DNA from: Myxococcales bacterium
Lineage (GTDB): Bacteria > Myxococcota_A > Polyangia > Fen-1088
Assembly: GCA_003142855.1 (NCBI GenBank)
Contig: PLNW01000069.1
Span: 1-64,000 of the forward strand
DNA length: 64,000 bases
Direction: 5' to 3'
The notes below the pieces were generated by a model. It saw only the letters and a program-made list of their open reading frames with translations, made no database searches and was not told where the DNA came from. Position numbers and translations under genes: made by a program. Positions 8,224-59,484 of this stretch are shown here, piece after piece; the stretch's first letter is position 1; the number at the start of each line of letters is the position of its first letter.

Positions 8224-8412
8224 TGTCCGTCGGCCGGAAACCTCGCCGAAACGCGATCGTGTGGTTTTCCCGCGATTTTCATCGCACTCGACTCAAGAAA
8301 TCGGCTAGAGTCTCTTGCGAACGCCGGTTTTCGTGGTGTCGCGGGATGATGTCGTGTCCCCCACTGCGCAGAACAGGTGCTTCCAGGCCCACCCAAACCA
8401 GAAGGAGATACG

Positions 8413-8724
8413 ATGGCTAAAGGTCCTCTTTCCAAGTCTGCCCTAATCCAGATTCTCTCCGACAAGTCTGCCAACGAGCTCACCCGCAAGGACGTCAAGG
8501 GCGTTCTTGAGGCCATGGTCGGCGTCGGCCATGCCGAGCTGAAGAAGAGTGGCATCTTCGTCGTACCCGGGCTCGTGCGCATGGTCGTGGTCAAGAAGCC
8601 GGCCACCAAGGAGCGCAAGGGCATCAACCCGTTCACCGGGCAGGAGACAATCTTCAAGGCCAAGCCAGCCCGCAAGGTGGTCAAGGCGCGCGCCGTAAAA
8701 GCGGCCAAGGACGCGGTAGCGTAG
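8413..8724 (+). CDS. HU family DNA-binding protein
   Basis: MAKGPLSKSALIQILSDKSANELTRKDVKGVLEAM...GIFVVPGLVRMVVVKKPATKERKGINPFTGQETIFKAKPARKVV; gaaggag RBS upstream. Confidence 0.82.
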   Translation: MAKGPLSKSALIQILSDKSANELTRKDVKGVLEAMVGVGHAELKKSGIFVVPGLVRMVVVKKPATKERKGINPFTGQETIFKAKPARKVVKARAVKAAKDAVA

Positions 8725-45205: not shown

Positions 45206-45314
45206 GTCGCTACGCCGCCGCGGTGTCCGCGCTGGTAGCCGGCGCACTCGCGGGCGCCGCGCCCAAACGCGCGTTCTCGGCCTTGCGTTGCTCGACCAGC
45301 TTGTCTCGTAGCTC
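45206..45314 (-). pseudogene. recA: recA 3'-end fragment (about 109 bp), copy 1
   Basis: [34 protein letters not shown]-stop; near-identical to 53599-53707. Confidence 0.8.
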
Positions 45315-45376: not shown

Positions 45377-46655
45377 TCTGCGTGTCTGAGCGGGCAGCGT
45401 GGCCATCAATGCTTCCGGCAACGCTGCAATTTCTCATCACGATGATCGCATGCGCGATCAACGAGAGAATGCAGCGCAAGCTGGACTACACTCAGGAAGA
45501 GGTCCGGGTTCTCAGGGACGTGCTGAAGGCTGCCACGGGCAGCGATAGGATCGTATTCACAGCCGACCACCGTCGTCGCCTCGCCGTCGCCGGCAAAGCT
45601 TTGAGCCCGGAAGAGCGGAAGAAGTACTGCCAGATCGTGAAGCCTGGGACGCTCTTGGGGTGGTTTCGCCAGATGGCGGCGCAGAAATACGACAGCTCGA
45701 AGAAGAAGGTCGGTCGACCACGGAAGAAGAAGGACATCCGCAAGCTGGTGATCGCTATGGCCCTGGCGAATCTGGGCTGGGGATATACGAAAATACGCGA
45801 CGCCCTTCGGACCGGATTGAAGATCGAGATCGGACGAACGACGGTGGCCAACATCCTGCTGGAAGAAGGGATCGAGCCGGCACCGGAGCGCGAGAAGAGG
45901 CGGACATGGAAGCAGTTCATGAAGAGCCATTGGGACACGCTCTACGCCTGCGATTTCTTCAGCGTGGAAGCCTTGGGGCCATTCGGCACGGTTCGGTACA
46001 TGGTGTTCTTCGTCATCGAGATCAAGAGTCGCGCCGTCGAGATCGCCGGGATTGCCGTTGACCCAGGCGAAGCGTGGATGAAGCAGGTGGCTCAAAATTT
46101 GACAGATCCGGTTGATGGGTTTCTTCGTGGCGCGAAGTACCTGATCCATGATCGGGACCCGTTGTTCACGGAGGGGTTCGTCGCGATTCTCGAAGCGGGA
46201 GGCGTGAAGAGCGTGAAGATTCCGGCGCAAAGTCCAAATTGCAATCCATACGCGGAGCGCTTTGTAAAAACCATCAAGTACGAGTGTCTCAATCACTTCG
46301 TCATCTTCGGCGAGCGACATCTGCGTCACTTGACAAAAGAATTCGTCGAGCACTATATGACCGAGCGGTTCCACCAGGGCATCGGTGGCCAACTCATCAG
46401 AAAGCAGGTTGGACCGACGAATGACAACGGGACAGACGGCAGGGTCGCCTGTCGCTCGCGCCTCGGCGGGATGCTGAACTACTACTATCGGGAGGCCGCA
46501 TGAGCCTCGGCGATCAGTTTTCGGACAGCAAGGGTGTTCGCGCCGAAGGATGTGCCCAGGTTGCGGACGGCACTCTCACGTGCTCTGGCCCAGTGAATGC
46601 GGCCTGTGCGGGAAGCTGGTGACGCGCCCTCGCCTACGAATGAATGACACGCAGA
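45377..46655 (+). mobile_element. Candidate IS-like element carrying an rve-type integrase
   Basis: Integrase ORF bracketed by a 10-bp inverted repeat tctgcgtgtc (45377-45386) / gacacgcaga (46646-46655); end assignment is tentative. Confidence 0.35.
45382..46503 (+). CDS. Integrase core (rve) domain protein / putative transposase
   Basis: ACDFFSVEALGPFGTVRYMVFFVIEIKSRAVEIAGI, LIHDRDPLFTEGF, SPNCNPYAERFVKTIKYECLNH; DDE-type layout intact. Confidence 0.88.
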   Translation: MSERAAWPSMLPATLQFLITMIACAINERMQRKLDYTQEEVRVLRDVLKAATGSDRIVFTADHRRRLAVAGKALSPEERKKYCQIVKPGTLLGWFRQMAAQKYDSSKKKVGRPRKKKDIRKLVIAMALANLGWGYTKIRDALRTGLKIEIGRTTVANILLEEGIEPAPEREKRRTWKQFMKSHWDTLYACDFFSVEALGPFGTVRYMVFFVIEIKSRAVEIAGIAVDPGEAWMKQVAQNLTDPVDGFLRGAKYLIHDRDPLFTEGFVAILEAGGVKSVKIPAQSPNCNPYAERFVKTIKYECLNHFVIFGERHLRHLTKEFVEHYMTERFHQGIGGQLIRKQVGPTNDNGTDGRVACRSRLGGMLNYYYREAA

Positions 46656-51876: not shown

Positions 51877-52554
51877 TTCATCCTCCATTGGGCTGATGCT
51901 GGTCGGGCGAAGCAGTCCGGCACTCGGGGTTGGGGGGCTGCCCTTTGCCACATCCAGGATTTGTGGCGCGAATTCAAGGCGTGCGCGTGTGGCTGCGGAC
52001 ATGTCGTGGAAGGCGGTGCGCCGGGAACTCCTCGCGCAGCCCGAGGTAGATCGATCTCCCCTGACCTTCGCACGCAACTCCTCGAATCTTGCTTCCGATC
52101 CATGAAGTCCCCCAAGAGGTGGAAGCGAGCCACTACCTATCTGGCGGGGAGGCCTATCGTAGATGCGCGACCCATGTCAAGCACAAGTACGTCACAGTAG
52201 CATCACAAGTGCTCGACATGCGGGGCGTTCGCAAGCACGGGTTGGGTACTTCAGTCTTAGTATATTGTAACGAATACGGCGGAATGTGATGGAATAGTAA
52301 CTTCCGGGAGAAGTCGCACTTGCCGCCTCTCGTATCGCGATTCCTTGTTAGATTTGAGCGTCGTCGTGATGGAGCGCGCTCAAGGAGGCGCCCTTTCGGC
52401 CGACTAGTTCTGCATGCCCTACCCTGTCGCCGCCCGACGAGCTTTGACGAGGGGGTGGATTTTCTTACAACGCGACGGCGCAAGAAATGTGCGCCGTCTT
52501 GCTTCGCGGCCGCGTCGAGAGCACCTCCGGGGCACATGGGAGCATCTCAGCTAG

Positions 52555-53445
52555 TTGGTGCCGCTGATGTCGAAGAGATCCTCTAGCCAATCCTCGATTG
52601 TCTCAGTCGCGATGAGGGATGCGCCCGCACCAGAACGCCATGGCTTCCGGGCCATGCAGTCCCGAGCGTGCCACCTGCGCAACTTGCGGATTGCGGAGAT
52701 GTTCGACGCCGGCAAGAGCGTCGCCGAAATCGCCAAAGCCGAACACCTCACGCCGACGTGGGTATGCTCCATTCTCGATGCGACCGGCGTGCGGCGAAAG
52801 CGCAAGCGCGGTCCGGGAATACCGTTGGGCGAAATGCCCGAGATCGTCCGGCTCAGCGCCAGCGGCTGGTCTCTGCGGGAGATCGGAGGGAAGTACGGAA
52901 TCAGTGGCGAGGGCATCCGGCAGGCGATCACCAGCTGGCCCAAGAGGAGGAGGAGGGTTGCCATCGCTAAGCGGAGAGCGGGCGCCAAGGTCGCAAGGAC
53001 GGCCGAGAAGATCCCCATTCTTTCGAGAACGACCGAGTACCCGGCGGATGGATCCTTGCCCGCGCAACGGCGAATCGGCCACAGGCGCCCTCGCCCACCG
53101 AGAGCAGGCGGAGAGACAATCGGCGCGGACTTGGTCGACCGTCTCTCGGAACGCCGGAACATCAGCCTGCGCAAGGCCGCGCCCTTGGTCGCCGCGTTCT
53201 TCGAGTGTATCGGCGGCGCCTTGCGTCGAGGCGAGCGTGTTGAGATCCGCGGCTTCGGTGTTTTCACGATTCGGAACCACAGGGGCTACCGGGGGCGAAA
53301 TCCGCGCACGGGGCAAGCCGTCGAGATCAGGCCCGGACGTGTAGTTCTCTTCAAGGCGAGCAGGGAGTTCTTGAAGCGCCTGAACGTAGGTCGAACCGGG
53401 AAGGAAGAGCGAATACAAACCGACGACGTGTCGGCCCAAGCGTGA
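52555..53445 (+). CDS. Two HTH-like segments fused to a C-terminal HU/IHF-type DNA-binding domain
   Basis: RIAEMFDAGKSVAEIAKAEHLTPTWVCSIL, EIVRLSASGWSLREIGGKYGISGEGIRQAI, then IGADLVDRLSERRNISLRKAAPLVAAFFECIGGALRRGERVEIRGFGVFTIRNHRGYRGRNPRTGQAVEIRPGRVVLFKASREFLKRL. Confidence 0.8.
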   Translation: MVPLMSKRSSSQSSIVSVAMRDAPAPERHGFRAMQSRACHLRNLRIAEMFDAGKSVAEIAKAEHLTPTWVCSILDATGVRRKRKRGPGIPLGEMPEIVRLSASGWSLREIGGKYGISGEGIRQAITSWPKRRRRVAIAKRRAGAKVARTAEKIPILSRTTEYPADGSLPAQRRIGHRRPRPPRAGGETIGADLVDRLSERRNISLRKAAPLVAAFFECIGGALRRGERVEIRGFGVFTIRNHRGYRGRNPRTGQAVEIRPGRVVLFKASREFLKRLNVGRTGKEERIQTDDVSAQA

Positions 53446-53602
53446 GAAATGGCTTGGGCGGCGCTCTTGCCGCGACGGACGCCGAAGTGCCGGCCATCAG
53501 TTCCCCATGCGCCGGCCAGGTTGATGATCCACGTCGAATGGTCGTGCTCAGCGGCGTCGCCGACCTCTGCGCCGCCAAGTCCGCCCCCAACGATGATCGT
53601 CG

Positions 53603-54080
<478 letters not shown>

Positions 54081-54082
<2 letters not shown>

Positions 54083-54258
54083 GCAGCTCCCAACGTGGGC
54101 AAACGGGCTTCCGCGTCACCCTGTCGGTGGAGGCATGACCTAGTGAATCATAGAAGTCCGAGGACGCACACGTGTACACCGCCGACGAAAACCCAAATGA
54201 TATTGGGGAGGTCGCTCTTGCGTATAAAAGTCGCGGGAATGTCTTCGCTCGCAGCTGT
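54081..54258. repeat. About 175-bp repeat with hairpin, copy 1
   Basis: ttgcagctcccaacgtgggcaaacgggcttcc...catagaagtccgagg...cccaaatgatattgggg...gtcgcgggaatgtcttcgctcgcagctg; aligns along its length with 56612-56789. Confidence 0.85.
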
Positions 54259-54283: not shown

Positions 54284-56125
54284 CTAGGAGAATTTTCTGT
54301 GCAACCTTTCGCGCAGTTCTGCCAGGAACGAGTGCAGTCTGCGAACCAGTCGCAGGTACATCTCCTGGTAGTCCCCTGGCGAAGCCGGCACTCCGGAAAC
54401 CCCCAGACGTTCAAAGACTTTCTTCACGTCCTCGTAATTCTTGTCCGCGCCGTGGCCACCGCGTTCCAGATCGTGACAGAGCCATTTGGAACGGAGGAAT
54501 TTCAGATCCATCACCGCCTCAAACAGGTCCTCGGTTCTCCGAAAAACGCCGCACTCGCTGTTGCCCTCCTCGAATCGCAGATTCGGGCTGCCAGCGCCCT
54601 CGTAGATTAGGAGGTAGAGATGCTCGACAGCCTCCTTGAGGCAGATCAGATTTCGCGGCAAGAGCCATGGAAGCAGTGCGGACGCGCGGGCGGTCCTGTT
54701 TGTGTGCGAGAAGATGTCATCTTTGCCATGAAACCGAGCTGCTTCATTACAATCAACGACGCATGTGAGCAGCTCTCTTATTAGCGCAGCAAGCCGGACG
54801 ATGTCTGCACTCTCGGCGACCTTTGTTACCGATACGTCTTCGTCGAGCGCTGCCCGATTCACAAGCTCGTCGCGCTCCAAGTCGAGCAGGTCCAGTGGCG
54901 GAGCTGCCGGCTGTTCGGCCGATAGGCCGGTCGAGATTCTGTTTTCTTGAGCAAGCAACCGCGCCGTCACTTCGCTCGTGACCTGAAAATGGGTTGAGCC
55001 TAGCACTAGTGCGAGGTCGAGAACTTCTCGTCCTCGCGGAGTCGTTGCCCGCGCAAGGTCGCCGGTTCTTTCCATATAGGAAGTGAACGCGCGGCTCGGT
55101 TCTCTCACGATGGAGCCATAGGAAAGTGCATCGAGAGACCTTCCTGCGGCCATGCTTTCAATGACCGAGGCAAGACCATTTCCTGCAACGGCACGAGCGA
55201 TCTTAAAGTTTGGGATGCTTTCATCATAAACGTGAAGTCCCAACCATTGCAGCCGGTCCTCGCGAAACATGGTTGCTGTCGAAGTTCCCATCTTGTCTAG
55301 CAAGCTGAGGGCGCCCAATTTCTCCACCGGGTCGAGCATGCCCTTCGTCATGCTGGAGAGGACGTTTGGCTCGCGGAATCTCTCCGCGGCGGCGAGGATA
55401 CCCTTCGTCATGCCGGACATTGGATCACGGTATTGCTTCGCGGCGGCAAGCATCCCCTTCGTCATGCTGGACATTGGATCACGGTATTGCTCCGCGGCGG
55501 TGAGCATCCCCTTCGTCATGCTGGACATTGGATCACGGTATTGCTTCGCGGCGGCGAGCATCCCCTTCGTCATGCTGGACATTGGATCGCGGCATTGCTC
55601 CGCGGCGATGAGCATCCCCTTCGTCATGCTGGACATTGGATCACGGCATTGCTCCGCGGCGGTGAGCATCCCCTTCGTCATGCTGGACATTGGATCACGG
55701 TATTGCTTCGCGGCGGCGAGGATCCCCTTCGTCATGCCGCGAAGGCCGATCCGGGCGTCGAGTTCCTCCATCGGATCATGCAGCTCTTTCATGCCCCTGG
55801 AGACTGCACCGCGGGCGCCACGCTTTGCCACCGGCGCGCCTACTTTTTTCACAGCCCTGGAGATCAGCTCTATTCCGTCGATGGTCTCAGACTGCCGCCC
55901 GGTATGCTCGAATCCCTTTGACGCTTCTTCTTCCTGAATTGTCCCCGCCTGCTCAATGTCGAATCCAGGAGCAATGGTTAGTACATCCGCTCGTAGGATG
56001 CTCCATCCCTTCGCCTTCGCGAGATCAGCAGGGGCTGCTCCCGCCTGCCGAATGGCTTGAAGGCACTTTTGGTAGGCCCATCCGGTGATCTTCCGGAGGT
56101 TACGCGCCCGAGTCTTCAGGTTCAT
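54284..56125 (-). CDS. 613-aa protein with 18-aa tandem repeats and HEPN-like C-terminal region
   Basis: Repeats MTKGMLTAAEQYRDPMSS; C-terminal helical region with LKFLRSKWLCHDLE (Rx5H) and RRLHSFLAELRERLHRKF. Confidence 0.75.
   Translation of the reverse strand: MNLKTRARNLRKITGWAYQKCLQAIRQAGAAPADLAKAKGWSILRADVLTIAPGFDIEQAGTIQEEEASKGFEHTGRQSETIDGIELISRAVKKVGAPVAKRGARGAVSRGMKELHDPMEELDARIGLRGMTKGILAAAKQYRDPMSSMTKGMLTAAEQCRDPMSSMTKGMLIAAEQCRDPMSSMTKGMLAAAKQYRDPMSSMTKGMLTAAEQYRDPMSSMTKGMLAAAKQYRDPMSGMTKGILAAAERFREPNVLSSMTKGMLDPVEKLGALSLLDKMGTSTATMFREDRLQWLGLHVYDESIPNFKIARAVAGNGLASVIESMAAGRSLDALSYGSIVREPSRAFTSYMERTGDLARATTPRGREVLDLALVLGSTHFQVTSEVTARLLAQENRISTGLSAEQPAAPPLDLLDLERDELVNRAALDEDVSVTKVAESADIVRLAALIRELLTCVVDCNEAARFHGKDDIFSHTNRTARASALLPWLLPRNLICLKEAVEHLYLLIYEGAGSPNLRFEEGNSECGVFRRTEDLFEAVMDLKFLRSKWLCHDLERGGHGADKNYEDVKKVFERLGVSGVPASPGDYQEMYLRLVRRLHSFLAELRERLHRKFS
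55292..55735 (-). repeat. 54-bp tandem repeat (18-aa unit, about 6 close plus 2 degenerate units)
   Basis: Repeated catccccttcgtcatgctggacattggatcacggtattgcttcgcggcggcgag. Confidence 0.93.
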
Positions 56126-56470: not shown

Positions 56471-56611
56471 GCGCCGTCGCCGGTGTCATGGCCAGGCCCG
56501 CCAAGAAGGCGAGCACCGGCCGCCGGCCGGCCTGGCCGCCGTGCAACACCTCGTCAACGGTCAGCGGACGAAGCCCACATGGCGAGCGGCGGCGTCGTAG
56601 TTGGCTATCTG

Positions 56612-56789
56612 TTGGCAGCTCCAACCGTGGGCAAACGGGCTTCCAGGTCACCCTGTCGGCGGAGGCATGACCTAGCGAACCATAGAAGTCCGAGGGCGCA
56701 CACGCCTATACCCGACGACAAAACATCAATGATATTGATGCGTTCGAGCTTGTGTACAGAAGTCGTGGGAATGTCTTCGCTCGTAGCTG
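56612..56789. repeat. About 175-bp repeat with hairpin, copy 2
   Basis: ggcagctccaaccgtgggcaaacgggcttcc...catagaagtccgagg...catcaatgatattgatg...gtcgtgggaatgtcttcgctcgtagctg. Confidence 0.85.
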
Positions 56790-58734: not shown

Positions 58735-58968
58735 CTACGTCCAGCCGTTCGCCCGCCTCCAGGCCGCGAGCTTGGCTCGCGCGTCGTCCGCGTCCTTGGC
58801 GTCCTCCCGGTACGCCTCCTCCGGCACCGGGACCATTCCGCCTTTGTTTGTCGGCCTCGGCCCCGTGATCACCGCCAGGCCGTCGTTTTCGCCACGGAAG
58901 CTCATCCGATAGTCGTGGCCGTCGGGAGATCTTGTCGTTCCAAGGAACTCGCTCTTTGGGAATTTCAT
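58735..58968 (-). CDS. Small hypothetical protein (77 aa)
   Basis: MKFPKSEFLGTTRSPDGHDYRMSFRGENDGLAVITGPRP...; protein-like composition. Confidence 0.5.
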   Translation of the reverse strand: MKFPKSEFLGTTRSPDGHDYRMSFRGENDGLAVITGPRPTNKGGMVPVPEEAYREDAKDADDARAKLAAWRRANGWT

Positions 58969-59030
58969 TTTGAACCTGCCTTTCAGGGCCTATTTGAACA
59001 CGGGTTCTAGCGCTAGCTTTATGGCCGGGC

Positions 59031-59204
59031 CTAGTTCGGCGATGTCGGCCGGCGGGCGGGCTCGATGCCCCCGGCGTCGCCCTCCACCATCTCCATGCCG
59101 ATGCGGAGGAGGTTCTCGCCCAGCGGCTCGAATCCCCGGGCCGCCAGGGCCAGGCCGGCCAGGCGGAGCAGGTCGCAACCTACCTCGAACATCGAGGGCA
59201 GCAT
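59031..59204 (-). CDS. Possible small ORF (57 aa), with a decayed copy at 56.4 kb
   Basis: MLPSMFEVGCDLLRLAGLALAARGFEPLGENLLRIGMEMVEGDAGGIEPARRPTSPN. Confidence 0.4.
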   Translation of the reverse strand: MLPSMFEVGCDLLRLAGLALAARGFEPLGENLLRIGMEMVEGDAGGIEPARRPTSPN

Positions 59205-59322
59205 TCCCCATTGTCGGCCGCGAACGGCCGAGGTTGCGTTAGGGCGGTCGCTATGACCTTGTCTGTGAGCCTGGCCGTGGGTTTCGAGGCCGGCGGCGAC
59301 CGCGCCCAATACCGGCCGGCGA

Positions 59323-59484
59323 CTACTTGGACCATGGCCAGTGTGCGATCAGGGCGGTGACGGCGGCGATGATGATTTTGGTCAGGGGCGCGGCCCACCA
59401 ACGTCGGCGAGGGGTATCGATCTGCTCCCGTCTCTGCTTCCTTCGGAACGGTTTTCGTCGAAGGATGCGTCTTCTGTTCGTCAT
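59323..59484 (-). CDS. Possible small basic single-TM protein (53 aa)
   Basis: MTNRRRILRRKPFRRKQRREQIDTPRRRWWAAPLTKIIIAAVTALIAHWPWSK. Confidence 0.4.
   Translation of the reverse strand: MTNRRRILRRKPFRRKQRREQIDTPRRRWWAAPLTKIIIAAVTALIAHWPWSK

Follow-up and report, generated by a model that had tools for sequence, protein, structure and literature searches.

The window analysed here, the 64,000-nucleotide stretch of contig PLNW01000069.1 from a Myxococcales bacterium (assembly GCA_003142855.1), contains a gene that encodes two helix-turn-helix (HTH) units in tandem fused to a complete HU/IHF domain. The architecture is conserved among three species of one genus, and its HU domain groups with the HU proteins of the same family. 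Judging from these parts, we consider it somewhat better than an even chance (approximately 55%) that the product is a lineage-specific, sequence-targeted DNA-bending protein that acts as a transcription regulator or an architectural factor.

Architecture of the fusion protein

The open reading frame at 52555-53445 on the forward strand comprises 296 amino acids when read from TTG at 52555. However, alignment with two orthologues indicates ATG at 52567 as the likely start, yielding a gene at 52567-53445 and a protein of 292 amino acids (MSKR...), and no clear Shine-Dalgarno site was seen upstream of this ATG. Long antisense ORFs overlap the gene, and a chance ORF in GC-rich DNA was considered and excluded by the domain scores, by dN/dS ratios of 0.24-0.36 and by the fact that the length differences between orthologues are whole codons. 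The protein consists of a variable N-terminal tail, the first HTH unit, a basic RKRKRGPG linker with the second HTH unit, a longer basic linker and the HU/IHF domain. The first-pass annotation, which described an HTH-like front end, a basic linker and an HU domain in this frame, was borne out by Pfam, structure prediction and the orthologue alignment.

That annotation had also proposed two HTH-like segments. The first (52642-52794) matches Pfam HTH_23 at 34.5-37.5 bits (cut-off, 24.6) and forms three helices in the model. The second, with its preceding linker (52795-52941), is less clear in the window copy, where it remains below the Pfam cut-offs (DUF433, 19 bits; Sigma70_r4, 16 bits), but it is more distinct in the orthologues, with a best E-value of 3.5e-6 to Sigma70_r4 across the three. 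AlphaFold also predicted the N-terminal block as two three-helix units, the second with a pLDDT of about 85-89, so that both units are present, one by Pfam and the other through the orthologues and the model. The full-length model is of low confidence everywhere but in the HTH block.

The 55-residue linker that follows (52942-53106), already noticed as basic in the first pass, contains 18 K/R versus 3 D/E and is the least conserved internal part of the protein. The HU-type domain, placed initially at about 53115-53390, matches PF00216 at 53125-53385 with 81.3 bits (cut-off, 22.4), covering profile positions 4-90 of 90. All three orthologous copies keep the RGFG core and the RNP tip, and the RNP is invariant. 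The proline at the tip of the HU/IHF beta arm serves to kink DNA.

Distribution, conservation and origin of the HU domain

Full-length orthologues with 70-71% identity were found in two of the six other genomes of the genus (G006 and G002, both Myxococcales fen MAGs), making three carriers among seven genomes; the four in which the gene was not found (G001, G003, G004 and G005) are only 76-88% complete, which limits the meaning of that absence. A profile of the HTH block matched only the three carriers among 18 genomes of the family, and among 318 genomes of the class it retrieved the same three and weak matches only (E-values of 9.5e-4 to 0.009). In a sample of 379 genomes of the phylum, searched at an E-value of 1e-5, only the window's own genome was matched, G006 and G002 not being in the listed part of this sample. 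A widespread architecture was therefore rejected: the fusion was not found beyond the genus in these family, class and phylum-sample searches. The initial impression that the fusion is unusual holds, since among the genomes searched it is carried by only three, all of one genus. An origin as a phage, plasmid or virus gene was likewise rejected, because the phage search matched the HU domain only and the HTH block was not found in the plasmids and viral contigs searched. Our literature search found no paper on an HTH-HU fusion of this make-up.

The gene is under purifying selection. The dN/dS ratio given above applies to the whole gene; for the HTH and HU parts alone it is 0.17-0.34, and dS reaches about 0.6 among the three species in which the gene is open.

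The genome to which the window belongs has 16 PF00216 matches. The window itself contains a second HU-like gene, at 8377-8724, of a short and divergent kind (47.8 bits to PF00216). In a tree of HU domains, the fused domain occupies a long branch within a clade of the family's HU proteins (support, 98/96); its exact sister is unsure because long branches were flagged in the tree. Because the fused domain groups with the family's own paralogues, the simplest history is that a surplus native HU paralogue probably gained the HTH front end within the genus.

These data also bear on the possibility that the protein is a general nucleoid protein whose HTH block and basic linker add only affinity or bridging, possibly in heterodimers with ordinary HU and with no particular target. 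The density of basic residues in the linker and the number of possible HU partners in the same genome are consistent with such a role, and basic tails are common among HU proteins. However, in comparisons of the window copy with its orthologues, the HU domain is no better conserved than the HTH units, a degree of HTH conservation that exceeds what generic affinity would need, and we regard this explanation as unlikely.

Upstream of the gene by about 420-480 bp, a non-coding block (52089-52146) shows conservation in the three carriers alone. An inverted repeat, GTGTCAT...ATGACAC, is present upstream of the fusion gene in G006 (L021 1320-1354) and G002 (L022 1026-1058) and is absent from the window; no conserved operator common to all three copies was found. 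An Rfam search of the window yielded no match.

The recA locus and a serine-recombinase element

The fusion gene converges on recA. In the window, the neighbour is the 3' part of a recA gene (codons 199-357; 53603-54083, reverse strand) that has been displaced from its 5' part and does not belong to the fusion protein; in G006, the fusion gene is followed by a complete recA frame that contains a two-base assembly gap. A second copy of the recA 3' sequence is present in each of the three carriers; it may mark an island or, for G002 and G006, may reflect a binning error. Trees of the recA halves did not separate these readings, and they spoke neither for nor against a recA 3' half brought in by the element as a replacement. 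In the window genome, this second recA is split at about codon 200, with codons 1-200 on contig C53, and the sequence CAACCAG is common to both ends of the split gene. An intact recA paralogue is located on another contig of the same genome (C19, L057). In addition, a 106-bp piece of the recA 3' end at 45206-45311 is 96% identical to 53599-53704, lies on the same strand at a distance of 8.3 kb and adjoins an rve-type transposase gene (45382-46503).

On the C53 side (L097 7129-9289), the recA break abuts a gene for a 523-amino acid large serine recombinase with Resolvase, Recombinase and zinc-ribbon domains. If the C53 and window ends belong to one element, this element is at least about 39 kb in size and takes in the window from 54083 onward. 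We excluded the fusion gene as a part of it, since the start of the element, at 54083, leaves the gene outside. At this boundary, the first copy of an approximately 180-bp repeat (54080-54257), which ends at the recA junction, is 84% identical to a second at 56611-56789; no other full copy was found in the genome. Between them, on the reverse strand, lies an ORF for 613 amino acids (54284-56125), in which a repeat like SSMTKGMLAAAKQYRDPM occurs about seven times in tandem and no Pfam family reaches its cut-off.

Relatives of the recombinase in two other myxobacterial families sit with a recA broken at the same place. One (42% identity; G074:C448, L127) abuts recA codons 10-199. The other (46% identity) is encoded at 123655-125157 of a 385-kb contig (G134:C115; L119, L123 and L126), between recA codons 7-202 (58788-59375) and codons 205-336 (174805-175200), which are about 115 kb apart. 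A 16-codon recA piece is also present near 126454 in G134, and the 3' part restarts near codon 207 with a short stretch of recA repeated, which may represent a second insertion. In G074, provided that the half on C447 is the partner, the two sides of the junction have only AA in common. Serine integrases perform a two-base crossover, which such sharing would fit. No report of a recA-targeting serine recombinase was found in our narrow literature searches. A known island in recA, the RME of Vibrio cholerae, holds a phage integrase gene along with a full recA (PMC4405046), and the term 'serine recombinase' is absent from that paper.

The location raises the question of whether the fusion protein serves, like IHF or an excisionase, as an architectural helper for site-specific recombination in a hot spot of mobile elements next to recA. 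This is suggested by the adjoining recA copy, split in the same genome by the serine-recombinase element, and by the second recA 3' sequence in every carrier. However, the gene lies outside the element, G006 and G002 carry it with no detected homologue of the recombinase, the stretch of the window that separates the two recA 3' copies encodes no integrase, the additional copies of these two relatives could stem from faulty binning, and trees of the recA halves do not decide the matter. We therefore consider this role rather improbable. The first-pass annotation had suggested a sequence-specific nucleoid or recombination architectural factor, a role that would follow naturally from the parts of the protein. 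On the chromosomal side, the window contains no integrase gene linked to the fusion gene, which leaves a part in recombination with indirect support at most; in G002, two adjacent tyrosine recombinase genes are found downstream of the fusion gene among IS-like genes (L051 2831-4737).

In G002, the last ~85 residues of the fusion gene also occur as a truncated HU remnant (G002:C189; L089 540-794), convergent with a recA 3' part, and this genome has the full gene on another contig. This remnant and the restricted distribution could point to a transient, decaying gene with no present function, which is very improbable given a frame that has stayed open in three species at such synonymous divergence and dN/dS.

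Relationship to known proteins and proposed function

The fusion resembles the HU/IHF family in its complete domain, RGFG core, RNP tip and position in the tree. It differs from the HU proteins of its relatives, which, where ORFs were cleanly read, are about 100-200 amino acids in length and lack the front end, in having 180 residues before the domain. Against the NCBIfam equivalogs for IHF alpha and beta, it reached at best 75.1 bits (cut-off, 111) and falls outside both. With HU-HIG (PF18291), in which HU is fused to a winged HTH, an Ig or a glycine-rich motif, it shares the combination of an HU domain and an HTH module. However, it scored 14.7 bits (cut-off, 26.2), its HU part is of the ordinary PF00216 kind, and its HTH units are HTH_23-like and two in tandem. 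Since the joining of HU and HTH is a type already named in Pfam, the present form is new as a variant, not in kind.

Among solved structures, those closest in fold to the HTH block include the bipartite DNA readers of Hsmar1/SETMAR, Tc3 and PAX-6, together with a CRISPR-repeat-binding protein. Like the Tc3/mariner transposases, PAX paired domains and Cbp1, the block has two small HTH units with a short basic linker between them, but none of the fold matches is significant (E-values of 0.19 or worse), the fusion has no catalytic domain, and it scored 18.6 bits against the model of the CRISPR-repeat-binding protein Cbp1 (cut-off, 140).

The HU bending domain ordinarily binds with little sequence preference, and IHF favours certain sites for bending, mostly through indirect readout. 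The retained RGFG and RNP motifs and the nearest, though not significant, fold matches of the HTH block to bipartite readers lead us to propose that, after a native HU/IHF paralogue had acquired the two-HTH module within the genus, the protein would dimerise via its HU fold and bend DNA with its beta arms, and the HTH pair of each subunit would read a specific site, thereby placing the bend at chosen loci. Dimerisation, bending, sequence specificity and the presence of targets are inferred from this architecture. In favour of a sequence-targeted DNA-bending protein are the HTH_23 and PF00216 matches above curated cut-offs, the orthologue and model support for the second HTH unit, the purifying selection on both parts and the well-supported placement of the HU domain among the family's HU proteins. 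The sub-threshold second HTH unit in the window copy, the low-confidence full-length model outside the HTH block and the lack of a shared operator among the three copies count against it.

A more speculative extension, which we hold as tentative, is that the protein is a site-programmed HU: each subunit would carry two modules for reading sequence, and bends would be installed at defined sites, among them possibly recombination complexes at the recA hot spot. A naturally occurring HU whose reading heads are separate would offer a clean test of whether the placement of a bend suffices to regulate a gene or to assemble a recombination complex, and it would illustrate how fusion turns a surplus HU paralogue into a young architectural protein.
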